DNA of 33,258 nucleotides from Verrucomicrobiota bacterium. GTDB taxonomy: Bacteria; Verrucomicrobiota; Verrucomicrobiia; Opitutales; Opitutaceae. Location: contig JAQGON010000159.1 of the NCBI GenBank assembly GCA_028293565.1, forward strand, positions 1 through 33,258, read 5' to 3'. The notes beneath the pieces are model-generated. The model ran no database searches. It was not told where the DNA came from and saw only the letters and a list, made by a program, of their open reading frames with translations. This document shows, in pieces, positions 8,754 through 25,997 of this stretch (positions within the stretch are counted from its first letter, which is position 1; every line of letters starts with the position of its first letter). Made by a program: the position numbers and the translations under genes.

Positions 8754-10073
8754 TTAATCGCGCACGATCTCGATCGGCAGCACAAAGATTCGGGTGAGGT
8801 CGCCGTTGTTTTCCGGCGACGGTTTGGCGCTTCGGTCGTACACGAGCAGCAGGCGATTCGGCGCGACCTCGACGATTTCGGTGTAAGATGACGTCTGCCA
8901 CGCCGGCGCCGCCACCACCCCGTCGGGCGAGGGCTTGGGTTGATACGTTCCGATGCGATAGGTCGGGTCCGGCGCCCAGCGATTGTGGATGTCCACGATG
9001 TCGATGTCCTGCCACTTTTCCGCACGTGCATCCGTCGAGAGCCACAACCGGATGCCGGGACGTCCCGTCGAAAGGGCAATGGTGCCGTTCGCGGTCCGCA
9101 ACAGGCTCGGCTCGACGCTGAACGCGGGAATCGCCTCGGCCGCGCTCCACGTCCGGCCCTGGTCGTGGCTGTAGGCCCGCCGCAGGTTCCACCCGCGCCC
9201 GCCGCCGACGCGGAAAACCGTCATCAGGTCGCCGTCGGCGAGTTGGATCATGCTGATCTCGTTCGGCCCCTCCGCCTCCGGCGGCAGGCCGGTGGCGTCC
9301 GCAACCGTCGAGAGATAGCGCCATGTCCGGCCCTGGTCTTCGGACGCGAGGATCACGTTCCGGTACTGGGTGTCGCCCTGCTTCAAACAGTAGCCAGTGG
9401 CGAGCAGCCGTCCGCCGACCTGCACCGCGTTGCCGTCGAAGCACAGCGGCACATAGCTGATCCGCGGCGCAATTCCCTGCACGAGTTCAGGCCCAAAAAA
9501 ACCGTAGCCCGTCGGCCGGGCCAGGTCCCAGGGCCAGTCCACGACCTTCACTCCGTGCGGCTCGAGCACGGCGCGACCGCCGCCGAGCTCCAGCCGCGTG
9601 TAGGTCGCGTCAAAATTTCGCGTCTCGCCCGGCGACGTGGCGTAGAGGTAAGCCGGAATCCCCAGCAGCGAGGAATCCGCGACCGGCGTGTAAATCATGG
9701 CCTGGTGCTCCGCGACAAAGTCCAGGCGCCGACTCCACGTCTTGCCGCCGTCCTTGGAGAGCTGGAGGCCGCTGAAGTTGCGCGGATTGTCGTTGTAGTC
9801 CGACACGAGGGAATAGGAGACCAGGATCTCGCCGGAGGGAAACCGCGCCATTGACGGGACCGGATGATTCATCACCCAGCGATGATTCGGGCCTTCCTCC
9901 CACGCCAGCTGCGCGGCGACCTGGATCGGTTCGCCGATGCGCACGCGCAGGCCGGCGAGCTTCACTTCGGTCACCGCCGCAGCGGCGGCAGTCGTCAACG
10001 CGGACAGCGCCAGTCCGGCGGCCAGCGCGAGCAGCGGAAGCCCGCGGAGAATTCGTGTCGGATTTGTTTTCAT
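8754..10073 (-). CDS. Exported Asp-box (BNR) propeller protein, sialidase-like, copy 1
   Basis: A 439-residue protein with a Sec signal peptide (about residues 1-33, LLALAAGLALSALTTAAAAA). Asp-box turns with the S-x-D-x-G-x-x-W pattern are clear (SKDGGKTW at 106-113, SEDQGRTW, SHDQGRTW), marking a multi-bladed beta-propeller like those of GH33 sialidases. The family is diverse, and the same fold serves other glycosidases and polysaccharide lyases, so the chemistry is not settled. The usual FRIP motif is not obvious (MARFPSG lies near that place). This is the last gene of the minus-strand cluster, 16 bases after copy 2, and is expected to act in the periplasm or outside the cell on released glycans. 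Confidence 0.88.
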   Translation of the reverse strand: MKTNPTRILRGLPLLALAAGLALSALTTAAAAAVTEVKLAGLRVRIGEPIQVAAQLAWEEGPNHRWVMNHPVPSMARFPSGEILVSYSLVSDYNDNPRNFSGLQLSKDGGKTWSRRLDFVAEHQAMIYTPVADSSLLGIPAYLYATSPGETRNFDATYTRLELGGGRAVLEPHGVKVVDWPWDLARPTGYGFFGPELVQGIAPRISYVPLCFDGNAVQVGGRLLATGYCLKQGDTQYRNVILASEDQGRTWRYLSTVADATGLPPEAEGPNEISMIQLADGDLMTVFRVGGGRGWNLRRAYSHDQGRTWSAAEAIPAFSVEPSLLRTANGTIALSTGRPGIRLWLSTDARAEKWQDIDIVDIHNRWAPDPTYRIGTYQPKPSPDGVVAAPAWQTSSYTEIVEVAPNRLLLVYDRSAKPSPENNGDLTRIFVLPIEIVRD

Positions 10074-10089
10074 GAGCGAAAGATTCCGG

Positions 10090-11334
10090 TCAGCGGGTGA
10101 CCTTGAGAAAGGTGCCGTAAATCGAGTTCACCGCGGTGGGCGCCTTGTCGGGGTTCAGGCCCCAGCCTTCGACAAACGGAAGATGATCGTAGACGATCAG
10201 CAGCTTGCCGGGCTCGACCTCGACCATCCCCGTGTAGCAGGTGCTTTTCTGCCGGGCATAGGGCTTGTCCGGAATGTTCACTTCGTCCGATTTGGCCACT
10301 TGGGTTGGAGTGCTCCAGGTCGAGCCGCCGTCGGCGCTGAAGCGCACGGCCACGGGTTCGGGCCGTCCGGTGCAAAAGGCCAGCAGGCCGCTTTTCATCA
10401 CCATGAGCGCCGGCTCGACGCCGTGGAATCCGAGCGACGCGGGCTTGCTCCATGTCCGGCCGTCGTCCTCCGACCAGGATTTGTACATCACGTTATTGCT
10501 GCCGCGACGCATGACGACCAGCAGCCGGCCATCGGGCAGCCGCACCATCCGCGGCTCGCCAAAGCCCTCCGCTTTTTTCTCCCCCTCGCGCGCGAGCGCG
10601 GCCCTGGCCTCCTCATCGCCGGCGATCGTGCTGAGGTACTGCCAGTTTTTTCCCGCCCGGTCCGCCTTGACGACGATGGTCCGGAAAAATTCATCCCCTT
10701 CCAGCTTGCCGTACATCGTCGTGAGCCATCCGCCGTCACGGGACGCGGAGGTCGTGCCGCTGAAGAGGATCAAGGCCGCCTCCTTGATCTTTCCCAGGCC
10801 GAGAGTGCCGCTGTCATGGATGGTGCCGTCCATTTTCCGCCGGACCGCCGGCTGGGGAAGATGGATCTGCACGTCGCGGCTCAACAAAATCGTGTTCCCC
10901 CCGGCGCTCAACCGGGCGGAGCTCGCCTGCAGGTTCCGGTAATCGTCGCCCGGCCCCGGCAGCGGGTAACCGGCCACAATCTCCAGGCTGCCGTCGGGCA
11001 GCGACGGATCGCGGGTATAGGAGGCCTCGCGGTAGAGCATGCCGCCGGTGTTGCGCATGCCCCAGGTCCTGCCGCCGTCCTTCGAGATCACATAGCCCCA
11101 GAAGTTTCCCTCCACGTCGTCCGTGTCGGCGTCGAGACTGAAGTCGCAGATCAGTTCTCCCGTCGAGAGCATCTGCAGCGAGGGAAAATAGCCGTACTTG
11201 TGGCTTTCGTGGACCGTCACCGTGTCGAGGACCTCCACCGCAGGTCCCGCCCGACCCGCCATGGGAATGGCGAGCAAAAGCCCGAGCAGCGGAACGATTC
11301 CGGGCCGGGCAGCCTTGGTTGTTTTCATCATCAT
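10090..11334 (-). CDS. Exported Asp-box (BNR) propeller protein, sialidase-like, copy 2
   Basis: A 414-residue protein with a signal peptide (LLGLLLAIPMAGRAG) and Asp-boxes SKDGGRTW, SEDDGRTW and SADGGSTW. A glutamate-rich middle (GEKKAEGFGEPRMVRLPDGRL) precedes a blade often seen in the sialidase superfamily (PRMVRLPDGRLLVVMRRG). Three successive Met codons open the frame; I keep the first at 11334. It sits 40 bases after copy 3 and 16 bases before copy 1, in what looks like one transcript. Its sequence is clearly different from the neighbouring copies, so this is not recent tandem duplication. Exo-sialidase is the closest named activity, but related lyase or glycosidase activity is equally possible. 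Confidence 0.88.
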   Translation of the reverse strand: MMMKTTKAARPGIVPLLGLLLAIPMAGRAGPAVEVLDTVTVHESHKYGYFPSLQMLSTGELICDFSLDADTDDVEGNFWGYVISKDGGRTWGMRNTGGMLYREASYTRDPSLPDGSLEIVAGYPLPGPGDDYRNLQASSARLSAGGNTILLSRDVQIHLPQPAVRRKMDGTIHDSGTLGLGKIKEAALILFSGTTSASRDGGWLTTMYGKLEGDEFFRTIVVKADRAGKNWQYLSTIAGDEEARAALAREGEKKAEGFGEPRMVRLPDGRLLVVMRRGSNNVMYKSWSEDDGRTWSKPASLGFHGVEPALMVMKSGLLAFCTGRPEPVAVRFSADGGSTWSTPTQVAKSDEVNIPDKPYARQKSTCYTGMVEVEPGKLLIVYDHLPFVEGWGLNPDKAPTAVNSIYGTFLKVTR

Positions 11335-11374
11335 AAATTTTCGGCGCGGTCAGGACCGACTGCGGCGCCATGTG

Positions 11375-12472
11375 TCACAAGATCCGGAGTTTGACATAGC
11401 GGATGCCGTGGCCGGAGGGCTGCAGCGCCCAGAGGGTGATCAGGAGCGTCCCGTCCGAGAGCGGAGTGACCGAGGGCTCGCCGAAGGCGAAACTGGTCCA
11501 GTCCTTGAAATCCGCCGTCGCATTCCCGCGCGTCGCGACCTCCGCCGCCCAGATCCGCTGGTTGGCGAGAAGGCCGAAGTCGGACTCGGTGGGCCGCGCA
11601 ACCGCGAGCCACACGCCGATGTCCCCCTGTTTGCGCTGATTGTAGACGAACAGGGCGCGACCGTCCGGCAGCGGCGCGAGGGCCGTGGACTGTCCGAGCG
11701 TCCCGGTCGATCCGGTCGGTCCCCACGTCGCGCCCCCATCCTGGGAGATCGCATATTTGTTCATTTGAGGAGTGTCGCCCAGAATGTGCCAGCCCGTGCC
11801 GAGCAGCCGTCCATCCGAGAGCTCCACGACCCAGGACTCGGCGCCGACCGAGTTGACGTCCGAGAAACGCAGCATGGTGCTGTGCTGCCAGGACCGGCCG
11901 TTGTTCCGGCTGACGAGGCAGATCACCTGGTTCTGCTGCACCCGCAACGCGGGATCGAACGTGTTGTACGGCGCATAGCAGCAGACCATGTGTCCTGCCC
12001 GCGTGAGGCACATCGCTCCCGCGGCTTCGGCGCTGCCGGCGATCGGCATGGGGATGACCGAGAACGGGGACCACGTGTGCCCGCTGTTGCCCGACCGGGC
12101 CCACACCAGCTCGTTTTGCTTCAGGCCCTTGGTGGCGTCGGACCACGCGAGTTCGCCCGGATGATCGATGGGCGTCCGCATGCCGAAGAAATGGAAATCG
12201 CCGGAGGGCGCCGCGCTGATCGACCCGAAGATCGAGAAGCGATCCTGGATTTCCGGCCAGAGCGGCTGGGCCTCCGACCAGGAGAGGCCGCCGTCGCCGG
12301 AGCGCGCGATCATCGGCTTGAAGTCATTGCCGCCCGACACGGACTGGGCGACGAACGTGCAGACGACTTCGCCGTTGCGCGCCTGCACGCAGCGCGACCC
12401 GGCCGCGATGCTGGTCGGGCCGCCGGGAGTGCGCTGCGAGACGAACCCTTCGGAGATGATTTCGTAGTTCAT
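11375..12472 (-). CDS. Leaderless Asp-box (BNR) propeller protein, sialidase-like, copy 3
   Basis: A 365-residue protein with four Asp-box-like turns (SGDGGLSW, SGNSGHTW, SRNNGRSW, SQDGGATW). The start at 12472 is supported by its ATGA overlap with the stop of the lyase gene ahead of it. The frame is open further upstream, but that stretch is the lyase coding region on the same strand in another frame. From MNYEIISEGFVSQRT there is no signal peptide, unlike the other four copies, so it should stay in the cytoplasm. Translational coupling to the lyase suggests the two proteins act on consecutive intermediates inside the cell. Confidence 0.87.
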   Translation of the reverse strand: MNYEIISEGFVSQRTPGGPTSIAAGSRCVQARNGEVVCTFVAQSVSGGNDFKPMIARSGDGGLSWSEAQPLWPEIQDRFSIFGSISAAPSGDFHFFGMRTPIDHPGELAWSDATKGLKQNELVWARSGNSGHTWSPFSVIPMPIAGSAEAAGAMCLTRAGHMVCCYAPYNTFDPALRVQQNQVICLVSRNNGRSWQHSTMLRFSDVNSVGAESWVVELSDGRLLGTGWHILGDTPQMNKYAISQDGGATWGPTGSTGTLGQSTALAPLPDGRALFVYNQRKQGDIGVWLAVARPTESDFGLLANQRIWAAEVATRGNATADFKDWTSFAFGEPSVTPLSDGTLLITLWALQPSGHGIRYVKLRIL

Positions 12473-13449
12473 GAGGAGGCGCCACGCGACGCGGGATTCT
12501 TCGAGCCCTGCCCGGGCAGCAGCTCGGGCGTGTTTTTCCGGCACCATGCGAGGACCTGCTTGACGTGCCGCTGGCTGCCACTGCGGTACGGCGACTGGCA
12601 GCGTAGGCCGACGTCGCCGCCGCCCGCCACGCGCTGGATGCGATCGACTGCGGAATCCCACAGGCCTTCGTCCTTCACCATCGGAACCAGCGCCTCGTAG
12701 AGGAAACGCCGGATCGAGGCGGCCAGCGGCGCGGCCTCGCGCATCCGTCCGGCGGCGCAGAGTTCATAAAGTTCGACGACCTTGCGCGCGTTGAACCCGG
12801 TGATGGAGCAATATCCGCCGCGTCCGCCCGCGGGGATTCGCTCGTGGAAATCCTCCCCGCCGAAGATGGCGATGTCCGGGGCGGCGCGGAGCATCGCCCT
12901 CACCTGTTTCAAATCGCTGCCGGTGTCCTTCGTCCCGATGAAGGTCGGGACGGCCGCGGCGATCTCGCCGAGCAGCGCCGGCGTCAGTTTCCGCTTCGAG
13001 CGGCTGGTGAGATAGAGGATGATCGGCGTCGCGCCGGCCTCGGCCGCAATTTCCTTCACGAAGCGCTTCACCTCGTCGTCCTTCAGCTCGAGCCAGAACG
13101 GCAGCGCGATCTGGATGGCGTCGGCGCCGGCCTTCAGGGCGACGCGAATGCGCTGGTTCGCGGTGCGGGTGCTCAGCGCCGTGGCGCCGATCTGGATCGG
13201 CAGGCCGACGTCGTGTGCCTGCTCGCACGCGATCCGGGTGATGCGCTCGTAGGTCGCATCGTCCTGGGCATAGTACTCGCCCGTGGTGCCGCCCGTGTAG
13301 ACTCCGTGAACGCCGGTTCCCCCGTAGGAACGGACCTCGCGCTCGAACCGGCGCGGATCCAGTTCATCGCGATCGGTCCAGGGGACGATCAGGGCACTCC
13401 AGACACCGTGAAGGTTCTGGCGGGTGAGTTTTTTGATTTTGGCGGGCAT
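12469..13449 (-). CDS. DapA/NanA-family aldolase or dehydratase, copy 1
   Basis: This 326-residue protein is a class I (Schiff-base) TIM-barrel lyase of the dihydrodipicolinate synthase/N-acetylneuraminate lyase family. Visible motifs are the carboxylate-binding GGTTGE (53-58), the catalytic Tyr146 and the Schiff-base Lys174 (FIGTKDTGSD). After Tyr146, family members usually read Y-N-x-P; here it is YLTSRSKRK, so the substrate loop is altered. It is therefore unlikely to be the housekeeping DapA and more likely cleaves or dehydrates a 2-keto-3-deoxy sugar acid. It follows the MFS permease by 33 bases and overlaps copy 3 of the Asp-box proteins by four bases (ATGA). Confidence 0.92.
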   Translation of the reverse strand: MPAKIKKLTRQNLHGVWSALIVPWTDRDELDPRRFEREVRSYGGTGVHGVYTGGTTGEYYAQDDATYERITRIACEQAHDVGLPIQIGATALSTRTANQRIRVALKAGADAIQIALPFWLELKDDEVKRFVKEIAAEAGATPIILYLTSRSKRKLTPALLGEIAAAVPTFIGTKDTGSDLKQVRAMLRAAPDIAIFGGEDFHERIPAGGRGGYCSITGFNARKVVELYELCAAGRMREAAPLAASIRRFLYEALVPMVKDEGLWDSAVDRIQRVAGGGDVGLRCQSPYRSGSQRHVKQVLAWCRKNTPELLPGQGSKNPASRGASS

Positions 13450-13482
13450 GGGAGAGTCGATTCGGAATTTGGGAGAACCGGG

Positions 13483-14835
13483 TCAGGCGGGCTGGGCGCG
13501 GTCGGCGTCGGTCAGGTCCTCGGGACGCGGACGCGGGTGCGAGGGCAGTTTGACGATCACCATGACCGTCGTGAAAACCAGGATGGCCAGGGCGACCCAG
13601 AAACTGGTCCGCAGGCTCCACGTGTCAGAAATCCAGCCGTACATCACCGGCGCGAATCCCACGAGGCTCGAGAGCAGGGTCAGAAACGCGATGTTGCGGC
13701 GGACCTGCGACGTCGGTGAGCACTGCACGGGATAGTTCATGTAATACACCCCGAACAGTTCGCCGGCGCCGTTGATGCCGAACGCCAGGAGGAACCAGTA
13801 GCCCGGCACGAAGAGCACCCACAGCACGCCCGCGATCTGCAGGCCGGCGGTCACAAGGAGGGAGGCCTTGGGATTGGTCTTCGTGAGCAGCCAGCCCAGG
13901 AAGAATCCCGCGAGGATCTTGAAGAAGAACCGCAGCGTCAGTTCATATCCGACCAGGTCCTCCGACATCCGGCCGACGGCCTCGTAGGTGAAGAGACTCA
14001 TGTTCGTCTGCACCAGGTTGCCGCAGTACATGAGGAGGTAGGCAAGGCTCGCGATCAGCAGGACGCGGTAACGGAGGAAGGCTTTGAATCCGCCGACAAT
14101 CGCCGTGCTGAAACTCTCCCGCTGGACATCCACGCTCGGGACCGGAATCCGGTAGAGCCGAACCAGAAAAGCGGCCAGTCCGGTGCAGGCGGCGCTCATG
14201 GCGAAGAGGAGCGCGTAGTTGCGCGGATACGGGACGCCCAGCCACGAAGGCGGAGTCCAGCCAAAGACTTTTCCCTCCAGCAAAAGCTGCGCGCCCAGCG
14301 AGCCGACGACGGCAAATGCGGGGCCCCAGCCGAAGGCGAGGCCGAGCGCCTTGCCGCGGAGCCGCGCGGAGACCCCGCGGTTCAACGCCTCCCAACCCAT
14401 GATGTTGATCACGCCGTTGGCGGCGCCGAGGACGCCGGCGTGCACCACGAGCGCGGCCACGATCAATCCGCCCGAAGGCTGCGCGAGGAGCGTGGCCGCC
14501 AACGCGATGCCCATCAGGGCCGACAGGCTGTAGGACAGACCCATCATCATCTTGAATTGGCGGGCAGCCGGGTACAGCCAGGTCACCACCAGCGGGACCC
14601 ACGCCATGCCGAGAAAGACGGTGCTGGGAAGATTCGCGACCACGTCCGACGTATGCAGACGCTTGCAAAGCCCGGCTTGCACGAAACCCACATAAAGCGC
14701 CGGCGCCGCAAGGTAGGTCAGCGAAATCTGCGCCGCGTAGATCCGGCAGTTGCGGATCTGGAGCCGGAGTTCCAGCGGGCAATCGCCCGACCCGGTCCCG
14801 GCGGCGGCCTCGGTCCCTTTGGGCGAGTCACCCAT
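13483..14835 (-). CDS. MFS permease
   Basis: A 450-residue integral membrane protein with about 12 hydrophobic helices in two halves and a short cytoplasmic N-terminus of roughly 35 residues. The loop after TM4 (NRGVSARLRGKALGLAFGWG) and the central loop between the halves (YRIPVPSVDVQRESF) match the major facilitator layout. Its ATG overlaps the end of the amidohydrolase gene by 8 bases (14828-14835), and a lyase gene follows 33 bases on, so it belongs to the cluster's transcript. It most probably imports the sugar or sugar acid released by the secreted Asp-box proteins. Substrate is not readable. Confidence 0.9.
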   Translation of the reverse strand: MGDSPKGTEAAAGTGSGDCPLELRLQIRNCRIYAAQISLTYLAAPALYVGFVQAGLCKRLHTSDVVANLPSTVFLGMAWVPLVVTWLYPAARQFKMMMGLSYSLSALMGIALAATLLAQPSGGLIVAALVVHAGVLGAANGVINIMGWEALNRGVSARLRGKALGLAFGWGPAFAVVGSLGAQLLLEGKVFGWTPPSWLGVPYPRNYALLFAMSAACTGLAAFLVRLYRIPVPSVDVQRESFSTAIVGGFKAFLRYRVLLIASLAYLLMYCGNLVQTNMSLFTYEAVGRMSEDLVGYELTLRFFFKILAGFFLGWLLTKTNPKASLLVTAGLQIAGVLWVLFVPGYWFLLAFGINGAGELFGVYYMNYPVQCSPTSQVRRNIAFLTLLSSLVGFAPVMYGWISDTWSLRTSFWVALAILVFTTVMVIVKLPSHPRPRPEDLTDADRAQPA

Positions 14836-15682
14836 TTCGGGAGAACGGCCGGCGGGCCAGGTGCGAATCCAGCCTGAAGAATTTCAGCGCGTTTTCGCGC
14901 AGGATGAGGCGCTTGGCTTTGGCCGGAATTTCCGCGGCTTCGATCCGCGTGCGCTGCATCGCCACGTGATAGAGCGGCGTGTCGCTGCCGAACAGCAGCC
15001 GCTCGGCGCCGATTTCCTTCACCGCCCATTCCACCAATCCCGGCAGAATGCTGCGCGAGCTGGAGGTATCGACCCAAAGGTTGCCGTGCTTCGCGGCCTG
15101 GATCGCGCGAACCTGCAGGTCGGGCCGCCCGTTGCCGCCCGCGCCATTGCCCAAGTGCGCCAGCAGCATGCGAACCGCTGGATAGCGATTGGCGAAAGGG
15201 ACGAAATCCGCCGGCAGGCTGTTGGGACAGCCGCTGTGCGTCATCACCGGCGCGTCCACCTCTTCGAAGAATTTGAACAACGCGTCGCCGTGATCGGAGA
15301 TGCGATAGCAATGCTCCTCCGGGTGAATCTTGATTCCGACGCACCACTTCGTCTTGAGCATGCTCCTCGCCTGATCGTACGTCTTCGGCTGGAGCGGATT
15401 GACGATCACATACTGGAGCAGCCCCGCCACGGACGGGATCACGCGAAAGGCTTCATTGTTGCCCGCCACCACGTCCGTGTCGGTCCCGCGCGGCATCAGG
15501 CCCGAGAGCGGGGAGACGACGGTCCACCCCACTCCGCAGGCCTTGGCCCGCGCGGTGACGTCCTTCGCCGAGGCGCTCATGAACTGGCACACCAGTTTGT
15601 TGCTGCGTTCGATGGCCGTGCTCGGCGGATAAACCCCGTAGTGACCATGGACGTCAATTGCGTTAATGTCGGTGTTACTCAT
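14828..15682 (-). CDS. Amidohydrolase-family (COG2159 type) metal hydrolase or lactonase, copy 1
   Basis: This 284-residue TIM-barrel enzyme keeps the full set of metal and catalytic residues: His12-x-His14 (DVHGHYG), a Lys/His strand (GIKIHPEEH), His149 (MTHSG), His176 (AHLGNG) and the terminal Asp234 (FGSDTP). The C-terminus ILRENALKFFRL is typical. The family includes lactonases of sugar-acid pathways and non-oxidative decarboxylases. In this context hydrolysis of an aldonolactone is a reasonable guess. It heads the second module of the cluster. A 16-base perfect palindrome lies two bases upstream of its ATG and shared element A lies 57-75 bases upstream, so it probably has its own promoter. 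No Shine-Dalgarno is visible. Confidence 0.9.
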   Translation of the reverse strand: MSNTDINAIDVHGHYGVYPPSTAIERSNKLVCQFMSASAKDVTARAKACGVGWTVVSPLSGLMPRGTDTDVVAGNNEAFRVIPSVAGLLQYVIVNPLQPKTYDQARSMLKTKWCVGIKIHPEEHCYRISDHGDALFKFFEEVDAPVMTHSGCPNSLPADFVPFANRYPAVRMLLAHLGNGAGGNGRPDLQVRAIQAAKHGNLWVDTSSSRSILPGLVEWAVKEIGAERLLFGSDTPLYHVAMQRTRIEAAEIPAKAKRLILRENALKFFRLDSHLARRPFSRNG

Positions 15683-15684
15683 TT

Positions 15685-15700
15685 GTAATTAGTTAATTAC
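15685..15700. promoter_or_regulatory. 16-bp perfect palindrome at the amidohydrolase start
   Basis: GTAATTA-GT-TAATTAC is a perfect 7-2-7 inverted repeat that ends two bases before the ATG at 15682. It covers the place where a ribosome site would be. It could be a repressor operator, an mRNA hairpin that tunes initiation, or part of an AT-rich leader that keeps the start unstructured. Confidence 0.5.
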
Positions 15701-15738
15701 GAACCATTATCAGGCGGAGGCGACGCGGCGGGCCCGGA

Positions 15739-15787: not shown

Positions 15788-16579
15788 TCACCGCGCCGAA
15801 TAGCCGCCGTCCACTGCGAGCGTGGAACCCGTGATGTAGCTCGCGGCATCGCTGAGCAGGAAGACGACTGCGCCGCTGACCTCCGCGGGTTCGGCCATGC
15901 GGCCGAGCGCCGTCATCTTGCCGTACCGGGCCACAAATTCGGCGGGATCAGGATGCAGCTCGTCCGTGATCCCGCCTGGGGCGACCGTGTTGGCGCGCAC
16001 GCCCTTCGGGCCGTAGTGCGCGGCCATGAACCGGGTCAGGTTCGTCATGCCGGCCTTGTGGAAAAAATAATCGGGCGCGGATTTCATCGTCGTTCCTTCA
16101 TAGAGCCAGGGGTTCGGTCCGCCGATGCCGTGGATCGAGGAGATGCTGACGATGCTGCCGCTGCCCCGCGCGGCCATGGCATCGCCGAACGCCCGCACGG
16201 TGGCGAAATACCCGGTTGCATTGGTCGCCATCGATTGCTGCCAGCGGGCAATGTCGTCGTTCCATCCGCCGCGCATCGGATAATTCATGGCGTTGTAGAC
16301 CAACCCGTCGATGCGCTGATGCTCCGCCAGCACGCGGTCGCGCAGGCCGAGAACGTCCGGCTCCGAATCGGGAGTGCATTCTTCCCCGTGCACATCGAAG
16401 CCCCGAGCTCTTTCCGCCACTGCGATCGCCTCCGCCTTCGCGCGCTGTCGCGAGGTGATCACCACGGTTGCCCCCGCGTTCGCGAGGGCTGTCACCAAAG
16501 CCGGCCCGAGCAGCCCCGGCCCGCCGATTTGCACGATGACTTTTCCCGTCAGGGAAAATTGCGGGACAGGGTTAATCAC
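15788..16579 (-). CDS. Short-chain dehydrogenase/reductase (SDR)
   Basis: A 263-residue classical SDR with catalytic Asn120, Ser147 or Ser148 (SIVSISSIHG), Tyr171 and Lys175 (YFFHK), and the C-terminal ITGSTLAVDGGYSAR. The cofactor motif is unusual: GGPGLLG (19-25) where TGxxxGxG is expected, and the NNAG motif reads YNAM. 'TSRQRAKAE' after the second strand gives an Arg where NADP-preferring enzymes have a basic residue (tentative). The start is a GTG with no ribosome site. It is the last gene of the first module, 77 bases after an Asp-box protein. Oxidation of a sugar or sugar-acid hydroxyl is the likely role. Confidence 0.9.
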   Translation of the reverse strand: MINPVPQFSLTGKVIVQIGGPGLLGPALVTALANAGATVVITSRQRAKAEAIAVAERARGFDVHGEECTPDSEPDVLGLRDRVLAEHQRIDGLVYNAMNYPMRGGWNDDIARWQQSMATNATGYFATVRAFGDAMAARGSGSIVSISSIHGIGGPNPWLYEGTTMKSAPDYFFHKAGMTNLTRFMAAHYGPKGVRANTVAPGGITDELHPDPAEFVARYGKMTALGRMAEPAEVSGAVVFLLSDAASYITGSTLAVDGGYSAR

Positions 16580-18879: not shown

Positions 18880-20001
18880 TTAGCTTAAGCCGGGACTTTT
18901 GATGCGAAGGATTCTTGCGGCCGTTCCGCCCATCAGTTTCGCCATGTCCGCGGGCGAGAGAAGATCCTGACAATAATTCTCGATGTAGCGGCGCGACTGG
19001 CGGTAGGTGCAAAAACGATTCTGGAACGGCATGTCCGTGCCCCAGAGCAGCCGGTCGGGGCCGATCTGGCGGATCATGCCCTCGAGCGCGGGACGACATT
19101 CGACGAACGGGTAATCGAAGAGGTCTCCCAGCCTGAACGGAAAGCCGACCTCGATGCAGAGGGTCGAATCGGAAAATGGCTCCCACATGTCCTTGGGCAG
19201 CACGAGCCGCCCGCCCTCGAGAAAGTCGCGCCACGGATATCCGTGCGTCACGCTCACGACCGCCCGCGGGTACCGGTCCATCCACTCGCGTAGCACCCGG
19301 AGCTCCTGGAGAAACCCCTCCCGCGGATCGCTCGAGCCCGGACTGGCGCCGAGGGTGAAAAAGAATGGAACGCCCAGCTGCGTCGCGGCGTCCCAGAAAG
19401 GCCGCCACGACGGTTCCGTGAAACGGCGGGCGCCGGCGATGCGATAGGCGTATTCCGGGATTATCTTCACCGCATGGAGCCCGTGAATCGCGATCGCGTC
19501 CCGCGCCTGCTTGATCGCCGCGTCAGGACTGCCGGGGATCAGCCATTCGTCCACCGGCGCCATCGCCTTGAGCCGTCCCGGATAGGCCCGCACGCACGAG
19601 GCGAGATAGCCGAGATCCTTGGAGAGCGTCGCGTCGGTATGAAGCAGCGCCCAGTCGACGTCCGCATGATCCATCTCGGCGATCAGCGCTCCCGGGCCGA
19701 ACTCGATGACGTTGGGCGGCAGCTGCTGTTTCGTGTAATCCTGGCCGTCGACCGTCCAGACGAAGCGTTTGGTCGAGTGATCCACCCGGAAATTTCGCTC
19801 GCGGGACACCCGCAGCGGATCGTCCGGCGTCGGATCGAGCAGGAGGCGCGCATCTCCCGGCGCGCGGTCGCGGACGCGGAACGCGGGTTGATGATGGAGC
19901 GCGTATTGCCGCTGCCAGAATTCCAGATGGGCTTCCACCGATTCATGCCCCGCGGGAGTATCCGGCGCGGTGAAGCAGTACGCGTGGCTGTCGACGATCA
20001 T
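18880..20001 (-). CDS. Amidohydrolase-family (COG2159 type) protein, copy 2
   Basis: A 373-residue TIM-barrel protein starting MIVDSHAYCF. The frame is open to 20340, but that part overlaps the preceding Asp-box gene, so the ATG at 20001 is chosen, 40 bases after that gene's stop. The later motifs are recognisable (VKIIPEYAY, VTHGYPW, LLWGTDMPF, and a C-terminal GTAARILRI). The first metal motif is H-x-Y (DSHAY) instead of H-x-H, and the strand-5 position reads FFFTLGA where a His would be expected, so metal binding may differ from copy 1. An insert of roughly 60 residues (ERNFRVDHSTKRFVWTVDG) precedes the core. Lactonase, decarboxylase or a non-catalytic role are all open. Confidence 0.87.
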   Translation of the reverse strand: MIVDSHAYCFTAPDTPAGHESVEAHLEFWQRQYALHHQPAFRVRDRAPGDARLLLDPTPDDPLRVSRERNFRVDHSTKRFVWTVDGQDYTKQQLPPNVIEFGPGALIAEMDHADVDWALLHTDATLSKDLGYLASCVRAYPGRLKAMAPVDEWLIPGSPDAAIKQARDAIAIHGLHAVKIIPEYAYRIAGARRFTEPSWRPFWDAATQLGVPFFFTLGASPGSSDPREGFLQELRVLREWMDRYPRAVVSVTHGYPWRDFLEGGRLVLPKDMWEPFSDSTLCIEVGFPFRLGDLFDYPFVECRPALEGMIRQIGPDRLLWGTDMPFQNRFCTYRQSRRYIENYCQDLLSPADMAKLMGGTAARILRIKSPGLS

Positions 20002-20041: not shown

Positions 20042-21265
20042 TCAACGGTGCGCGAGGCGGAACGAATCCATGACGATCGACTGGTCGATCTTGCCGTAGG
20101 CGTCGTCGGAGCCGATGTGACCGACCACCAGGATCTGGCCATCGTCGGTCTGGACAGCGTGGGGATAATAGGCTGAGCCCGGAAGATCGAGCCGGTGCCA
20201 TGACGCGCCGGCGTCGTCGGTCCAGTGGATTCCCGTGGTGGCGAGATGCAGAATCGGGCCTTCCTTCGTCGCGAGCAACTCGGGGTGTCCGCTGTGCGGG
20301 AAAGGCGCGGGGCCCACCGTTGTCGGCACCCACGTTGCACCCTGCTTTTTCAGAACGCCCTGCCAGCGCACTTCCCGCTGCGGCTTGGCTCCCGACGGAT
20401 CAGGCAGCCGAAAGACGCAGAGTAGGTCGCCGTTCGGCAGTTCGGCCAGGTCAAACTCCTCACCGCCCCAGTTGTGGCGGTTTGCCTCGGGCACGACCGC
20501 GATCGGGGCGGACCACGTGTGGCCTTCGTCGGACGAAACCACCAGCATCGGCTCGATATACTTGGCCATTGCCTCGCGGTTGATGCTACCCGCCGGCACA
20601 TTAGCGATTCCGCCCAAGGAAATCAACCGACCGTCGCGCAAGACGCGCAAGCGCTTCGGCAAAGTGATGCATTTTTTGGGATCCAGCATCACTTCAGGAG
20701 GACCCCACGTCAGCGTTCCGTCATGGGAGCGTTCGATGAAACCCGTCTGCGGCTTTTCCGGGTTGTAGGGCAGATAGTGCCCCCACACCGCCCGCAACAC
20801 GGTGCCGTCAGAGAGCGCCACTTCCGGTTCGCCCGTGATCCCGTTCATATTCGATTTGAACGAATCCGCGCTCACCTTCTCCCAGGTTGCGCCGGCGTCC
20901 TTCGACTTCAGGTGGACATTCCGCATCTCCAATCCGGTCATGTCGTAACCCGGCAGGCCCGGCGGCGGCCAATCAAGGCGGCGCTGGATTTCAACTGGCG
21001 CGAGCGCGCGGCCCTCGACCGGGCCGGTGGCCTGGGTGAAGCTGACCATGACGCTTCCGTCGGGCATCTTCCAGGCTCCCACCCAGCTCGTGAATCCGGG
21101 CGTTTGGGGGGAATGGTAGATCACACGATGCTCATAATTCTTCGCGACGAAGCTCTCTTCGCCAGCGGCCGCGGCCCGGACGGCCGGGACCGGCAAATTC
21201 AGAAGGGCCAAGGTGGCGGCGCAGCTCAAGGAGATGCGCGGAGAGAACAGGTGCGTTTTCATCAT
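20042..21265 (-). CDS. Exported Asp-box (BNR) propeller protein, sialidase-like, copy 5
   Basis: A 407-residue protein; MMKTHLFSPRISLSCAATLALLNLP and the following AVRAAAAG form a signal peptide. The frame is open to 21457, but the upstream part is AT-rich control region, so the start at 21265 (or the next Met at 21262) is preferred. Asp-box turns are SKDAGATW, SHDGTLTW, SSDEGHTW and TDDAGASW. Blade sequences such as SWVGAWKMPDGSVMVSF fit the sialidase superfamily. It is the first gene of the minus-strand cluster and is transcribed away from the TonB receptor. Shared element B lies about 100 bases upstream. Confidence 0.88.
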   Translation of the reverse strand: MMKTHLFSPRISLSCAATLALLNLPVPAVRAAAAGEESFVAKNYEHRVIYHSPQTPGFTSWVGAWKMPDGSVMVSFTQATGPVEGRALAPVEIQRRLDWPPPGLPGYDMTGLEMRNVHLKSKDAGATWEKVSADSFKSNMNGITGEPEVALSDGTVLRAVWGHYLPYNPEKPQTGFIERSHDGTLTWGPPEVMLDPKKCITLPKRLRVLRDGRLISLGGIANVPAGSINREAMAKYIEPMLVVSSDEGHTWSAPIAVVPEANRHNWGGEEFDLAELPNGDLLCVFRLPDPSGAKPQREVRWQGVLKKQGATWVPTTVGPAPFPHSGHPELLATKEGPILHLATTGIHWTDDAGASWHRLDLPGSAYYPHAVQTDDGQILVVGHIGSDDAYGKIDQSIVMDSFRLAHR

Positions 21266-21384: not shown

Positions 21385-21526
21385 TACACGGATCAAGTAA
21401 ATTATTCGGGGAAAAGCTCCTCAGTCGCGGCGGGCGATAAGGAGTGCGCCGGCACATATTAGCCGAACTTCAAATCCGTCGACGCGATAACAGGAGATGC
21501 CGACGAGCTGAATAGCTTAAGACTTT

Positions 21527-21544
21527 TGTATATAATGCTATACA
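21527..21544. promoter_or_regulatory. 18-bp palindrome TGTATA-N6-TATACA with embedded TATAAT
   Basis: Perfect 6-6-6 inverted repeat. The plus-strand sequence includes TATAAT at 21531-21536, an ideal -10 hexamer, although no good -35 is visible 16-18 bases upstream. GTATA/TATAC half-sites resemble those bound by FadR/NanR-type GntR regulators, the class encoded at 24050. A repressor bound here would block the -10. Confidence 0.55.
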
Positions 21545-21643
21545 CTACAATCTGTGTTTTTCACAATATGACAATCGGACCTTTGAACTTGGAGATTAAT
21601 GGCCCGGGAGATGCTTCCCGTGAAGCTCGAAGCACTTGAGTGA

Positions 21644-21678: not shown

Positions 21679-21719
21679 CGAGCAGTGTTTTTCTCCGGCA
21701 TCCAACAACCCACCACCAA

Positions 21720-23852
21720 ATGAGCATCCACTCCACGGCCTGCCTTTCATTCGCAAGGCGGCTTCTGATCAGTTGCGCGGCTATGCTGACCGCTTCCGCC
21801 CTGGCCCAAACCACCACCACTACCACCACGACCTCGACCACCTCCACGAAGGCGGATGACGACAAGATCACCCATCTGACCGCCTTCGAGGTCAAGGATA
21901 CCCAGGACACCGGTTACACGGCGAAGAACGCCATCTCGGGCAGCAAGACTTCCCAGCCCTTGGAAAACCTCGCGGGCGCCTACTCGGTCGTGACGCGCGA
22001 CTTGCTCGACGATTTGGGCGCAATTCAAAACGCCCCTGAAGGCGTGCGCTATGTGGTTCCGGGCGTCACACCTTTCGTCAAGGGCGACCAGTATATGATC
22101 CGCGGCCGCCGCAGCGGCGGGACCGCCGACGACGGCGTGCCTTCGGTCATCTTTTTCGCCGACAGCGTGGGCATCGACTCAATCGAAGTGATGAAGGGAC
22201 CGCAGGCGGTGCTTTACGGACAGCAGGCCGGCATCTTCGGTAACGTCCTCCGCGTTTCCAAGAAGCCCCTTCCGATCTTTCGCGGCAGCGTGACGGGGTA
22301 TTATGGTTCCGACGAATTCAAGCGGATGGAAGTCGACGTGACGGGCCCGCTCACCCACGGATTTTCCTATCGCGTCATCGGTGCCTACCAGAAGGCGGGC
22401 GGCTATCTGAAGAACAGCTTCGACAACCGCGAAGTGGGCATGGCCACGCTTCAGTGGAAAGGGCCGACCACCACCGTGCGCCTGCGTTTCGAACACCAGG
22501 ACCTCCAGCAGCGCGGCGACAACATCCAGCTCGGCACCACCGGGCAGGTGTTCAATGTCTTCGAGGGCGCCGGACGGAATGAGGGCTTCTTTCCCAAATG
22601 GGGCCACTACGAGGATATCGGCAATATCACCCGCCTCAATGTGATCCAGGACTTCGGCGAGCATGTGCAGAGCCGCCTCTCGGCCAGCCGCGCCAAGACC
22701 TTCCGCGACTATATCTATCTGCTCTCGCCGACTCCGAACTACGCGACCAACACGTTCACCCAGGACTATTTCAATTACGCCGAGGATTTCGAGGCGAAGG
22801 GCCTGTACTTCGACAACGTCGCGAAGTTCGATGTGCGCGGCATCCCGCTCCAGACCAACTTCGGCTATACGTGGGACAAGTTCACGCCGCTGAACTTCAC
22901 CCGGAATTATATTCCGAAATATTTCACGGGCAACCTTTACGCGCCGGACTACTCCAACCTGCTCGAGCCCCGGACCTCGGAAGGCGCCACGGGGATCGTC
23001 AAGGGCGCCATGACGACCGCGACCAGCCTGTATATTCTGCAGACGGTCGAGCTCTTCCACAGCCGGCTCATCCTCAGCGCCGGCGCGGCCTACAACAAAT
23101 CCGTCGTCGAAAGCCAGGACACGGGCGTGGTGTCCACCAACCAGGGGGAGTGGGTCAAGCGCGCGGGCATCGTTTTCAAGCCCGTGAGCAACGTGTCGCT
23201 TTATTACGGGTATGCCACGATGTTCAATCCGTCGTCTGTGACGACGCTCGACATCAACGGCAACCCGCTGCCCGTGATCACCGGCATCGGCAAGGAGGTC
23301 GGCATCAAGACCAGTTTCCTCGACGGCCGTCTCTCGCTGTCGCTCGATTACTACAAGCTCGAGCGCACCAACATCTCGGTTTTCACGGGCAAGATCAATT
23401 CGCGCGGACTGGGCTACTATGAGCTGGTCGGCGCCGAGCGGAGCAAGGGCTGGGAGTTTGAGGCCCATGCGCAGCTGACCAAGAGCTGGGAGTTGGTCGG
23501 CGTGGCGTGGAAAGGCGATTCGCTCGATCGGACCGGCACCCAGTTCTTCAACTCGCTGAAGGAGTCCGCCGGGTTCTTCACGAACTACACCTTCGGCAAG
23601 GGAAGCGCGCTGCCGGGCTTCAGCATCGGCGGCGGATCGTACGCCCAGGGCCGCCGTTATTTTGGCGCCAATGCCGCCGCCGGCTTCTTCACCCACACGG
23701 CGTTCATCGGGTATAAATTCGACCAGTACAGCATCCGCTTGAACGTCGAAAATCTAACCGACGAACATTTCGTCTCGGGCGCGTGGTCGCAAGGGCAGGT
23801 CTCCGGCAGCACGCCGCGCTCCTACCGCCTGATGGCTGAGATGCGCTTCTGA
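21720..23852 (+). CDS. TonB-dependent outer-membrane receptor
   Basis: A 710-residue receptor with a signal peptide (SCAAMLTASALAQ), a run of Thr residues, then ITHLTAFEVKDTQDTGYTA, the segment I associate with verrucomicrobial receptors. A plug domain follows (ENLAGAYSVVTRDLLDDLGA, YMIRGRRSGG, IEVMKGPQAVLYGQQ), then a 22-strand-type barrel ending in aromatic SYRLMAEMRF. It is short for the group but has both ends. It would take glycan fragments or other large ligands across the outer membrane using TonB energy. It is transcribed divergently from the Asp-box cluster and precedes the GntR gene, which ties it to the same pathway. The ligand is unknown. Confidence 0.93.
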   Translation: MSIHSTACLSFARRLLISCAAMLTASALAQTTTTTTTTSTTSTKADDDKITHLTAFEVKDTQDTGYTAKNAISGSKTSQPLENLAGAYSVVTRDLLDDLGAIQNAPEGVRYVVPGVTPFVKGDQYMIRGRRSGGTADDGVPSVIFFADSVGIDSIEVMKGPQAVLYGQQAGIFGNVLRVSKKPLPIFRGSVTGYYGSDEFKRMEVDVTGPLTHGFSYRVIGAYQKAGGYLKNSFDNREVGMATLQWKGPTTTVRLRFEHQDLQQRGDNIQLGTTGQVFNVFEGAGRNEGFFPKWGHYEDIGNITRLNVIQDFGEHVQSRLSASRAKTFRDYIYLLSPTPNYATNTFTQDYFNYAEDFEAKGLYFDNVAKFDVRGIPLQTNFGYTWDKFTPLNFTRNYIPKYFTGNLYAPDYSNLLEPRTSEGATGIVKGAMTTATSLYILQTVELFHSRLILSAGAAYNKSVVESQDTGVVSTNQGEWVKRAGIVFKPVSNVSLYYGYATMFNPSSVTTLDINGNPLPVITGIGKEVGIKTSFLDGRLSLSLDYYKLERTNISVFTGKINSRGLGYYELVGAERSKGWEFEAHAQLTKSWELVGVAWKGDSLDRTGTQFFNSLKESAGFFTNYTFGKGSALPGFSIGGGSYAQGRRYFGANAAAGFFTHTAFIGYKFDQYSIRLNVENLTDEHFVSGAWSQGQVSGSTPRSYRLMAEMRF

Positions 23853-23865
23853 TCCTTCATCGCCG

Positions 23866-23893
23866 CCGCGGCCAGGCTGGCGCCTGGCCGCGG
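23866..23893 (+). terminator. GC-rich hairpin after the TonB receptor gene
   Basis: CCGCGGCCAGG and CCTGGCCGCGG form a perfect 11-bp stem with a 6-base loop, 14 bases after the stop codon. There is no T-run after it, so it may be a weak terminator or an mRNA-stabilising structure that separates receptor from regulator expression. Confidence 0.55.
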
Positions 23894-24049
23894 TCGCTGT
23901 CCCGCGAGCTGCGCGGGGTCCGACTGCGTCGCGGCCCCGTTTGATTTTTCCCGCCACGTCTCATCATCTCGCTCCGTTCCGTTCCGAGTTGCTCGGCGCG
24001 GCCGTCGTTTGCTCTTCTCAACCCCAACGCAGCCGCCCACAGTGAATCG

Positions 24050-24820
24050 ATGGTCAACGTAGACTACTCCAAGGCGTACAAATACATTCGGGAGCGAATC
24101 CTGAGCGGCGAGTACGCGCGGGGCTTCCCCTTGAAACCCGACGTGCTGGCGAAGGAAATCGGCATGAGTCGCACTCCGATCCGCGACGCGCTGCGCCAGC
24201 TGGACGGAGACGGCCTCGTCAGCATCCGTCCGCGGATCGGGGCCAGCGTGCGCTCGATCGACGTCGACGAGTACGCCGAGATCTGCGGCATGCGCCTGGG
24301 TTTGGAAATTTACTCCGTCGGCTTGGCGGCGAAACTGCGGACCGAATCCGACCTGAAGGAAATCGCGTTTGCCTGCGAAGCCGTGGCGCGCGAGACCGAG
24401 CGCCTGATCCAGGCCACCGATGCGGAGAAGCACCACATGGAAAACCTCACCTCCGAACTGTTGATTCGCGAGGACATCCATTTTCACATGGCGATCACCA
24501 GCGCGGCGAAGAACCGGCTGATCGGAAGAGAAATCCTGCGCAATCACCTCATCACCCGCATCGTCTCGGTCTCGACCATGTTGACTTCGAAATCGTTTCT
24601 TCCGGTCAACCGCTCCGAGGCCCTGACCATGGCGCGCACGACCGTTTCGGAGCACCGTTTGATTTACAACGCGATCGAGCGCCAGGACGTGGCCGTCGCG
24701 AGAAATGCGATGGAAATGCACCTCCAGCAGGACGTGGATACTTTGATCCGCCGGTTGGGCCGCAACGAGAGCGGCGAGATCGCGGGCAATCTCGCCACCG
24801 GCCGCGGAGCGGCCTCCTGA
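24050..24820 (+). CDS. GntR-family transcriptional regulator (FadR/FCD subfamily)
   Basis: A 256-residue regulator. Residues about 5-70 form the winged helix-turn-helix (DVLAKEIGMSRTPIRDALRQ, then LVSIRPRIGASV). The rest is the all-helical FCD ligand domain, with the acidic/His metal-site pattern visible as EDIHFH, SEHRLIYNAI and AMEMHLQQD. FCD domains usually sense sugar acids, carboxylates or their lactones, which suits control of the neighbouring cluster. The gene lies 197 bases after the receptor, past a GC hairpin, and 10 bases before the HEAT-like gene. Operator candidates are in the 21266-21719 region. It is probably a repressor released by a pathway intermediate, by analogy with NanR and UxuR. 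Confidence 0.93.
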   Translation: MVNVDYSKAYKYIRERILSGEYARGFPLKPDVLAKEIGMSRTPIRDALRQLDGDGLVSIRPRIGASVRSIDVDEYAEICGMRLGLEIYSVGLAAKLRTESDLKEIAFACEAVARETERLIQATDAEKHHMENLTSELLIREDIHFHMAITSAAKNRLIGREILRNHLITRIVSVSTMLTSKSFLPVNRSEALTMARTTVSEHRLIYNAIERQDVAVARNAMEMHLQQDVDTLIRRLGRNESGEIAGNLATGRGAAS

Positions 24821-24830
24821 AGCTGCTGCC

Positions 24831-25997
24831 ATGTCTCGAGGCAACAAACCGGTCGGAAAGGGGCTTTGGCCGGTCTTGATTCTCGGCCCGCTCTTGATGG
24901 CGAGCCTGCTGCCGGCCGTTTCCGCTTCCGGCGCGACCGCACGGGAAAATTCCGGCGCCCAGGCAGTCGCAAGTTCCTCCGCGGCGGCGCGCGCGCGGGA
25001 AGTCCTGCGGCAGGTCGCAACGCACGGCGAAAGCTGGAAGATGATCCACGCCGCCGAGGCGCTGGTCGCCCTCGGCGAAGGCCCTGCGGTCCGCGCGCTT
25101 TTCACCGCGAATGAGGCCGCCGATCGCTCGGACTATCGCATCGGCGCCTGGCGGGTGCGCGCCCGGACCGCCGAATCTCCCGAAGAGCGCAGCCGCTGGA
25201 TCGGAAAAATCGAAGCCGTGCTGCTCGATCCCGCCAGTCCGGATCGCCTGGATGCCATCGAGACGCTCTCGAAGCTCAACTGCGTGATCTCCGGCCCCAC
25301 CCTCGCCGCCTCCCGCCAGCTCGCAGCCGGGTTGTCGGAAAGCGACGGCACCTTTCCGCTGTGGGCTCTGGCTCTGGCCAACGAACCCGGAGCGCTCGAG
25401 CGCCTCGCCGGCGTGCTGACATCCGCCAACAGCCAAGCCCGCGGCCGCGCCGCGTACGCCCTGCGGTGGCTTCGTCCTTCATCGCCGCAAGTTCTCCGGG
25501 CCTTGGCACAGGCCGCGGACGCCGAGGCGGCCGACACCGACGCTTTACCCTACATGCTGGGCGCGGCACTGGCCCTGAACGCTGATCCGCTTCGGGCGGG
25601 GGCGTGGCAGGCCCGGCTCGAGAAAATCCTGGCCGCCGGCGAAACCTCGGCCCGCTACGAAGCCTGCCAGACGCTGATGGTGCGCTATGGCATCGCCGAC
25701 CTGCCGCGATTCCAGCCGCTGCTCGAGGATCCCGAAAGCGACACCCGCGTCGGGGCGGCTTGGAGCGTTCTCTTCATCGAAGCCCGCTCGCGCGACCATC
25801 CAGCCGCACGGGGGCGATCGGCTCAGCGGTCCATTCGAGGTTTCATTGAGCCGAAAAACGAACGTCGAACTTCCAACGCCCAACTTCCAACGTCGAATGC
25901 CATCGTAGCCGCGAGCGTCAGCGCGTGGGCCTTTGAACATCGCCGTTCCAGTCGCTCACGTTCGGAGGCACCGATTGTCGCGGATAGGATGTCCTGA
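24831..25997 (+). CDS. Exported HEAT-like repeat protein with repeat-derived C-terminus
   Basis: A 388-residue frame starting 10 bases after the GntR gene. Residues about 12-35 look like a signal peptide or anchor (LWPVLILGPLLMASLLPAV). The body (about 50-335) is Ala/Leu-rich helical hairpins of HEAT/ARM character (WKMIHAAEALVALGEG, SQARGRAAYALRWLRPSS, ETSARYEACQTLMVRYG). From about residue 340 the coding frame enters a palindromic repeat and reads low-complexity NERRTSNAQLPTSNA to the stop, so the natural end is probably lost and the gene may be truncated or decaying. Similar helical repeats occur as C-terminal domains of sulfatases and in cytochrome-type proteins; no catalytic motif is seen here. 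Role unknown; probably co-transcribed with the regulator. Confidence 0.7.
   Translation: MSRGNKPVGKGLWPVLILGPLLMASLLPAVSASGATARENSGAQAVASSSAAARAREVLRQVATHGESWKMIHAAEALVALGEGPAVRALFTANEAADRSDYRIGAWRVRARTAESPEERSRWIGKIEAVLLDPASPDRLDAIETLSKLNCVISGPTLAASRQLAAGLSESDGTFPLWALALANEPGALERLAGVLTSANSQARGRAAYALRWLRPSSPQVLRALAQAADAEAADTDALPYMLGAALALNADPLRAGAWQARLEKILAAGETSARYEACQTLMVRYGIADLPRFQPLLEDPESDTRVGAAWSVLFIEARSRDHPAARGRSAQRSIRGFIEPKNERRTSNAQLPTSNAIVAASVSAWAFEHRRSSRSRSEAPIVADRMS

Follow-up and report, generated by a model that had tools for sequence, protein, structure and literature searches.

An amidohydrolase and lyase core within an Asp-box propeller gene cluster of an Opitutaceae bacterium and its possible role in acidic-sugar catabolism

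The window studied here is a 33,258-nucleotide stretch of DNA, contig JAQGON010000159.1 (our C214) of a Verrucomicrobiota bacterium of the family Opitutaceae (assembly GCA_028293565.1; 4.155 Mb, 239 contigs, 99.58% complete, contamination 4). A Pfam scan of the window proteins recovered all the families that an initial annotation, made from the sequence alone, had named for a gene cluster at 8754–25997. The cluster consists of five BNR_2/Asp-box proteins (BNR1 to BNR5), two DHDPS lyases (DHD1 and DHD2), two Amidohydro_2 proteins (AH1 and AH2), a short-chain dehydrogenase/reductase (SDR) and a major facilitator superfamily (MFS) permease, with a TonB receptor, a GntR/FCD regulator and a HEAT protein divergent from the main gene run. 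It is a real, conserved catabolic cluster, and the strongest new fact about it is its rare core, AH1-DHD1, accompanied by AH2 and BNR3. The features are as follows.

8754–10073, minus strand: BNR1, secreted-type Asp-box propeller (Pfam BNR_2, 1.6e-13)
10090–11334, minus strand: BNR2, secreted-type Asp-box propeller (BNR_2, 2.7e-16)
11375–12472, minus strand: BNR3, predicted Asp-box propeller without signal peptide, cytosolic (BNR_2, 6.3e-10, longer frame)
12469–13449, minus strand: DHD1, DapA/NanA-superfamily Schiff-base lyase, core gene (DHDPS, 1.9e-27)
13483–14835, minus strand: MFS permease (MFS_1)
14828–15682, minus strand: AH1, Amidohydro_2 TIM-barrel enzyme, core gene (7.5e-22)
15683–15702, no strand: AT-rich palindrome abutting AH1, weak putative operator
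15788–16579, minus strand: classical SDR dehydrogenase (adh_short_C2, 3.3e-41)
16657–17844, minus strand: BNR4, secreted-type Asp-box propeller (BNR_2, 2.1e-25)
17931–18848, minus strand: DHD2, second, distant DapA-superfamily lyase (DHDPS, 7.8e-11)
18880–20001, minus strand: AH2, Amidohydro_2 protein (3.6e-18)
20042–21265, minus strand: BNR5, secreted-type Asp-box propeller (BNR_2, 3.1e-08)
21526–21545, no strand: TGTATA-TATACA-like palindrome between BNR5 and the TonB receptor, putative operator
21720–23852, plus strand: TonB-dependent receptor (plug and barrel), siderophore-receptor type by family
24050–24820, plus strand: GntR/FCD regulator (GntR and FCD)
24831–25997, plus strand: HEAT-repeat protein, 10 bases behind the regulator

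All five Asp-box proteins match BNR_2 above the cut-off, and each contains two to five exact S-x-D-x-G-x-x-W boxes (three in BNR1, five in BNR4). BNR1 and BNR2 are 29% identical to each other, and the best PDB match of BNR4 is 5hx0, a structure named uncharacterised. Hydrophobic N-termini were seen in BNR1, BNR2, BNR4 and BNR5, while none was present in BNR3 or in the four of its six orthologs that were examined. BNR3, whose identification as a propeller is a prediction from Pfam, starts at 12472 and overlaps the DHD1 stop by 4 bases. The start of AH2 was refined to the ATG at 20001 and that of BNR5 to 21265.

From 15682 down to 8754, neighbouring genes either overlap or have no more than 40 bases between them, and AH1, MFS, DHD1, BNR3, BNR2 and BNR1 therefore look like one transcription unit. 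Upstream of it lie SDR, BNR4, DHD2, AH2 and BNR5, with gaps of 31 to 105 bases; the largest, between AH1 and SDR, is 57% AT, compared with 36% for the window. The initial annotation described two modules, 21265–15788 and 15682–8754, each repeating the set of Asp-box protein, lyase and amidohydrolase. Taken literally this holds, but neither half is a copy of the other: DHD1 and DHD2 share 29% identity over 221 amino acids, and AH1 and AH2 gave no BLAST match at E 1e-3. The gene order of relatives also cuts across the proposed boundary. A locus of a Lacunisphaera metagenome-assembled genome (MAG), L109, has on one strand an L-rhamnonate dehydratase, MFS, HEAT, AH1, DHD1, BNR3, BNR5 and AH2, followed by a gene with sub-cut-off GH43/GH32 matches, and the order in a second Lacunisphaera MAG locus, L108, is AH2, AH1, MFS, DHD1, BNR3; thus AH2 and BNR5 belong with AH1 and DHD1. 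We rejected the idea of a duplicated module, because the two halves do not match as homologs one gene at a time and the genes are grouped otherwise in relatives. DHD2, BNR4 and SDR look like additions to the core.

The conserved synteny that the initial annotation had proposed to look for was indeed found, with the module drawn differently. AH1 orthologs were taken at 69–78% identity, setting aside weaker matches (52 of 150 genomes of the family have some at E 1e-10). So defined, AH1 occupies 12 loci in 10 of the 150 family genomes, the window and its genome included, and DHD1 orthologs occur in 11, again with the own genome. Ten genomes have both, and one (G082) has DHD1 without AH1; the hypergeometric probability of this co-occurrence is 9e-15 when related genomes are treated as independent. 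All six family genomes with AH2 also have AH1.

A search of named genomes with an AH1 alignment gave 30 loci which, together with L103 and the own-genome paralog L106, make 32 AH1 loci besides the window. Many are contig fragments and some come from close relatives, so that counts are not independent and absences give lower bounds on presence. DHD1 (71–84%) lies within 3 kb of AH1 in 23 of the 32, and a DapA-family gene of 30–33% identity is found in three more (L130, L131 and L133), giving 26 in all. AH2 accompanies AH1 in 12 loci, an MFS permease of the window's family in 13, and BNR3 in six (L108, L109, L123, L125, L131 and L134), two of which are from Phycisphaerales. At E 1e-40, BNR3 was found in only one of 387 genomes of the phylum, the own genome, with up to five first-look candidates scored per genome; this rarity together with the six AH1 loci therefore indicates a strong association with AH1. 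The divergence of AH1 tracked that of DHD1 across 20 verrucomicrobial loci (190 pairs, Spearman 0.54), and none of 2000 Mantel permutations reached as high a value. The 20 loci were drawn from the 24 with DHD1 of at least 71% identity (window included), with L117, L119, L126 and L136 left out. Of the interpretation in the initial annotation, which holds in part, the claim of conserved gene partnerships within one acidic-sugar pathway is supported, for AH1, DHD1, AH2, BNR3 and BNR5.

Other window genes recur in AH1 loci at lower frequency. Orthologs of BNR1 (67%, L123), BNR2 (68%, L121) and BNR5 (69%, L109; 65%, L123) were found, and MFS orthologs of 72% (L108) and 68% (L121) are placed between AH1 and DHD1. 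SDR relatives (51–60%) and GntR/FCD relatives (39–46%) each occur in 4 of the 32 loci, and L109 has a 55% ortholog of the HEAT protein on the same strand upstream of AH1. The Asp-box set itself is not the conserved part: orthologs of BNR1, 2, 3 or 5 are present in 7 of the 32 loci, as against 18 with a gene of two other propeller-like families, F1 (about 510 amino acids) or F4 (about 550), usually behind DHD1. Sampled F1 and F4 members had no Pfam match, except that one F1 relative matched GH32 below the cut-off, and show repeated S-x-DG-x-x-W motifs. In profile searches F1 weakly matched 6n1a, named a carbohydrate-binding protein (1.8e-5), mannoside phosphorylases and 3,6-anhydro-L-galactosidases, while F4 weakly matched a mannobiose phosphorylase (1.4e-5) and, above 0.03, GH32. 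We take these matches to be 5-bladed propeller enzymes, and F1 and F4 likely adopt this fold, judging by the profiles. Recurring in AH1 loci are also a CehA/McbA-type metallohydrolase (NF038032, 7 loci) and a class-V aminotransferase (5 loci).

DHD2 belongs to a separate subfamily. Its closest ortholog (82%) lies in G028, a family genome 84% complete, beside a TonB receptor, Kelch and F1/F4-like genes; neither AH1 nor AH2 was found beside it or in that genome, in which a contig end cuts the locus about 1.1 kb past the gene. DHD2 was also found (69%) about 9 kb from AH1 in the 20-kb locus L129, together with the same MFS type. At E 1e-10 it matched in 45 of the 150 family genomes, with remote hits, for instance to DHD1 types, counted in, and 7 of the 20 DHD2 loci fetched contain propeller or Kelch relatives. 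The 3.0-Mb G028 has an unusually large Asp-box expansion of 49 BNR_2 matches.

These observations bear on whether 8754–25997 serves a single pathway at all. A real AH1-DHD1-AH2 core could have been joined by unrelated propeller, lyase and transport genes that drifted in, which would account for the placement of the best DHD2 ortholog outside an AH1 context, for the absence of any close BNR4 ortholog among 30 AH1 loci, for propeller families that differ from locus to locus, and for the 105-base AT-rich gap before AH1. We consider this improbable, as L109 keeps AH1, DHD1, BNR3, BNR5 and AH2 in one block, L108 keeps AH2, AH1, MFS, DHD1 and BNR3, and L129 has DHD2, the MFS type and AH1 within 20 kb. 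Moreover, all 13 BNR_2 hits of the own genome fall on four contigs, on each of which a DHDPS-family hit lies at most 3.1 kb from BNR_2; the rough joint probability of the four clusters under random placement is 1.4e-6. The pairing of propeller and lyase is therefore a habit of this genome and not an accident of the window.

Several other contigs of the own genome carry related gene sets. A second copy of the core gene DHD1 (75%) is found on C72 (L107:1439-9223) with F4, F1, CehA-type and MFS genes, and C223 (L106) has an AH1 paralog (69%), an MFS gene and a TonB receptor 42% identical to that of the window. C219 (L010:7774-18356) carries a paralogous cluster with four BNR_2 domains, an aldo-keto reductase, a DapA-family gene and an SDR 52% identical to the window's; one of its proteins, with a sub-cut-off HEAT_2 match behind BNR_2, is 50% identical to the window's HEAT protein over 265 amino acids. 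In another DapA-based catabolic cluster, on C226 (L014:3463-10788), a DHD2 paralog (39%) adjoins genes for a class-V aminotransferase, for hydantoinase A and B and for an FAD oxidoreductase; GntR, TonB receptor and F1 genes are present as well.

Members of the DapA/NanA superfamily share a Schiff-base Lys, a Tyr and a carboxylate-binding GxTGE motif. All three are present in DHD1, where K174, Y146 and GTTGE were invariant in 11 sequences and align with their counterparts in NanA, and place it in the superfamily. Its best solved relatives are N-acetylneuraminate lyases, yet it scores far below every NCBIfam equivalog cut-off, the nanA models included (84.6 of 281 and 80.5 of 382 bits). The metal ligands of Amidohydro_2 enzymes are an HxH motif, two His and an Asp, and AH1 has the complete set (H12, H14, H149, H176 and D234, invariant in 12 sequences). 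AH2 lacks it: as read from the sequences of the window protein and five orthologs, HxY replaces HxH and Thr216 occupies the presumed place of the strand-5 His. The nearest NCBIfam model of AH2 is L-fucono-1,5-lactonase, at 24.8 bits against a cut-off of 400, and the weak PDB matches of AH2 include chain 4dlf (1.7e-5). The label "lactonase-like" in the initial annotation thus reflects a weak similarity of AH2 and does not reach AH1, which has no named family.

The BNR_2 and NanA-like matches would suggest canonical sialic-acid use by sialidase, NanA, NanE and NanK. This is contradicted by the data and very improbable, in agreement with the initial annotation. No NanE was found in the 99.58% complete own genome, while the same search was positive in 8 of 14 control genomes, and the nanA models were missed by the distance given above. 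The first catalytic Arg of GH33 sialidases is carried by the FRIP motif; BNR1 to BNR5 belong to the Asp-box propeller family, but [FY]RIP was present in none of the five.

More serious, although still unlikely, is an ulosonic-acid route, in which the propellers release a 2-keto-3-deoxy ulosonic acid such as 2-keto-3-deoxynononic acid (KDN), 3-deoxy-manno-octulosonic acid (Kdo) or 3-deoxy-lyxo-heptulosaric acid (Dha), for example from pectin rhamnogalacturonan II or algal scales, and DHD1 cleaves it as NanA does, with no need for a dehydratase. The N-acetylneuraminate lyase relatives of DHD1 fit such a route, and four AH1 loci have YhcH/YjgK/YiaL proteins, of which the one scanned (L137) passed the cut-offs of TIGR00022 and DUF386 and fell short of that of the NanQ equivalog (101 of 160 bits). 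Kelch proteins occur in six AH1 loci, and the one protein scanned (from L127) had a sub-cut-off NanM match. The lack of FRIP in the propellers argues against it, as does the finding that in 18 of 32 loci Asp-box genes are replaced or accompanied by other propeller-like families, and the dehydratases of related loci and the SDRs would be left unexplained. Furthermore, the residue aligned with R150 of DHD1 is Arg in 1hl2 but Leu in 8u8w; Arg at this position is presumably the DHDPS-type residue, and 1hl2 we take to be an engineered NanA. In favor of the route, YhcH and NanM also assist NanA in the use of KDN (PMC8141875).

The gene families could also be read as an oxidative hexuronate variant (Udh, Gli, Gci, KdgD), with SDR as the dehydrogenase, an amidohydrolase as lactone isomerase or lactonase and DHD1 as 5-dehydro-4-deoxyglucarate dehydratase. 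Two KdgD-type models were among the NCBIfam hits of DHD1, but far below their cut-offs (77.7 of 278 and 60.7 of 374 bits). GntR/FCD weakly matched UxuR and ExuR, among other FCD regulators, and pectin-type enzymes occur in some relatives' loci. The Udh class differs from classical SDRs, and the window's SDR is classical; no aldehyde-dehydrogenase family was found among the window genes scanned. We regard this variant as rather doubtful, even though the known pathway, as given in PMC6353982, is composed of galactarolactone isomerase, cycloisomerase and KdgD.

Further clues to the substrate come from the relatives. Six AH1 loci contain nine genes for enolase-superfamily sugar-acid dehydratases, one of which, just upstream of the MFS-HEAT-AH1-DHD1-BNR3-BNR5-AH2 block of L109, is an L-rhamnonate dehydratase (548 bits, cut-off 393). 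Six loci have 2-hydroxyacid dehydrogenases, with a further one in L125. GH78-type rhamnosidases are present in L131 and L134, two Phycisphaerales loci; L133 has a PcRGLX (PL26-like) protein and L123 an arabinofuranosidase-type gene. Together, the dehydratase, dehydrogenase, YhcH, rhamnosidase, PcRGLX and arabinofuranosidase genes suggest acidic or deoxy sugars from pectin-like or algal polymers, and the acidic-sugar pathway class proposed in the initial annotation is supported by them and plausible. L-rhamnose was considered as the substrate in view of L109 but not adopted, since the L109 dehydratase has no ortholog in the own genome and only one of the nine dehydratases passes an equivalog cut-off.

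Palindromes with 5-base arms and gaps of 0–8 bases were enumerated in the 400 bases upstream of AH1 in 25 of the 33 loci, window included, after GTATAC-type sites had been noticed. ATACA-NN-TGTAT ranked first, being present in 7 of the 25 upstream regions as against no copy in 425 kb of the remaining locus sequence, and in each of the seven loci TTGAC precedes a copy of it by 11–13 bases. One of the remaining eight loci (L115, L121, L130 and L132-L136, two with less than 300 bases upstream) has it too (L136), giving 8 of 33. GTATAC occurred 15 times upstream of AH1, where 0.8 occurrences were expected. In the window, related AT-rich palindromes lie at 15683 and 21526. Their pattern TTGTA-N10-TACNM, with two window sites against 0.04 expected, is no more than suggestive, as it was derived from these same sites; in a set of 25 AH1 upstream regions of up to 300 bases, the window's included, those of L109 and of the window contained TTGTA-N(9-11)-TAC. 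We infer that the GntR/FCD protein binds the palindromes. Together, the dehydratases, the 2-hydroxyacid dehydrogenases and the palindrome upstream of AH1 lend support to a regulated route for acidic sugars whose last step is a retro-aldol cleavage.

Around the cluster, an aldo-keto reductase gene and a gene of the HIBADH/tartronate-semialdehyde-reductase type (7712–8623, NAD_binding_2/11) adjoin it on the other strand at 6226–8623; judging by their families, the encoded enzymes might reduce the aldehyde product. An ordinary resistance-nodulation-division efflux set (AcrB-type, HlyD-type, OEP) occupies 97–6274 on the plus strand, and a sigma-70-like protein with DUF6596 is encoded at 26035–27399, outside the cluster. 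Scans of the window with Rfam at gathering thresholds and for tRNAs gave no matches, and promoters were not in excess (3, mean 2.7). The number of terminator-like sites, 20, was mildly higher than in shuffled sequence (mean 13.5, SD 3.6).

With moderate confidence, we read the locus as a TonB-dependent cluster for the catabolism of an acidic or 6-deoxy sugar that comes from a glycan outside the cell. The secreted BNR1, BNR2, BNR4 and BNR5 would free this sugar, or a small oligomer, from the glycan, import would proceed through the TonB receptor and the MFS permease, and the cytosolic BNR3 may finish or open the imported sugar. SDR and the amidohydrolases would then oxidise the sugar and open the lactone, yielding an aldonate-type acid. 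A dehydratase encoded elsewhere in the genome, which has 14 MR_MLE_C hits outside the window, and inside the AH1 locus in several relatives, would convert this acid into a 2-keto-3-deoxy acid. As their family suggests, DHD1 and perhaps DHD2 would cleave the latter by a Schiff-base retro-aldol reaction into pyruvate and a short aldehyde, which the nearby reductases might reduce, and GntR/FCD would control transcription.

A number of observations weigh against this catabolic reading. Regarding the proposed dehydratase step, no aldonate dehydratase was found among the window genes scanned, the best match of the L109 enzyme in the own genome reaches only 33%, and none of the other eight dehydratases of AH1 loci reaches any equivalog cut-off. 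For AH1 there is neither a named relative nor an NCBIfam hit, its weak PDB similarities are mostly to decarboxylases, and AH2, its metal ligands apparently lost, may not be a hydrolase. Six of the 32 AH1 loci (L106, L123, L129, L132, L134 and L135) show no DHD1-like neighbour, and the TonB receptor of the window looks siderophore-type. Finally, ATACA-NN-TGTAT is missing in 25 of the 33 AH1 loci, the window among them, and from all seven planctomycete-type or distant loci tested.

Known systems resemble the cluster in part. Non-phosphorylative L-rhamnose and L-fucose (LRA/fuconate) pathways employ an SDR, a lactonase, an enolase-superfamily dehydratase and a retro-aldol lyase. The cluster shares the SDR, a lactonase-like amidohydrolase and a retro-aldol lyase, and L109 adds the dehydratase, but the window genes scanned include no dehydratase, the lyase belongs to the DapA family, Asp-box propellers stand in place of GH78/GH29, and we know of no counterpart of AH1 in these pathways. 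With nan operons it has in common Asp-box propellers, a NanA-like lyase, GntR/FCD, MFS and a TonB receptor and, in some relatives, YhcH-family and Kelch genes, but differs by its additional SDR and amidohydrolases as well as by the missing NanE and FRIP. The Udh-Gli-Gci-KdgD pathway draws on the amidohydrolase, DapA-family and dehydrogenase superfamilies. The cluster follows this same logic (steps as in PMC6353982), but none of its members reaches the family cut-off, and neither Gci nor a semialdehyde dehydrogenase was found among the window genes scanned. The verrucomicrobial methyl-pentose loci likewise come from Verrucomicrobiota and concern deoxy sugars derived from polysaccharides, and some related loci here have rhamnosidase-type genes; as described in PMC8857213, those loci rely on routes of the isomerase/kinase and microcompartment kind, together with fucosidases and sulfatases, families not found among the window genes scanned. 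In the open-licence literature, at the level of titles and abstract openings, no mention of the gene combination was found.

More tentatively, and with somewhat less than even confidence, we propose that AH1-DHD1 with AH2 and the cytosolic BNR3 forms the core of an undescribed acidic-sugar pathway of Opitutaceae and planctomycetes, in which AH1 would catalyse a reaction new to amidohydrolases and a constant core would be combined with exchangeable fronts of Asp-box proteins or Pfam-less relatives of 5-bladed glycosidases. The DapA and amidohydrolase superfamilies include many members without an assigned reaction, and Opitutaceae have many unassigned propeller proteins. AH1, DHD1, AH2 and BNR3 form a small set that can be assayed, offering a route to the substrates of whole uncharacterised propeller families.

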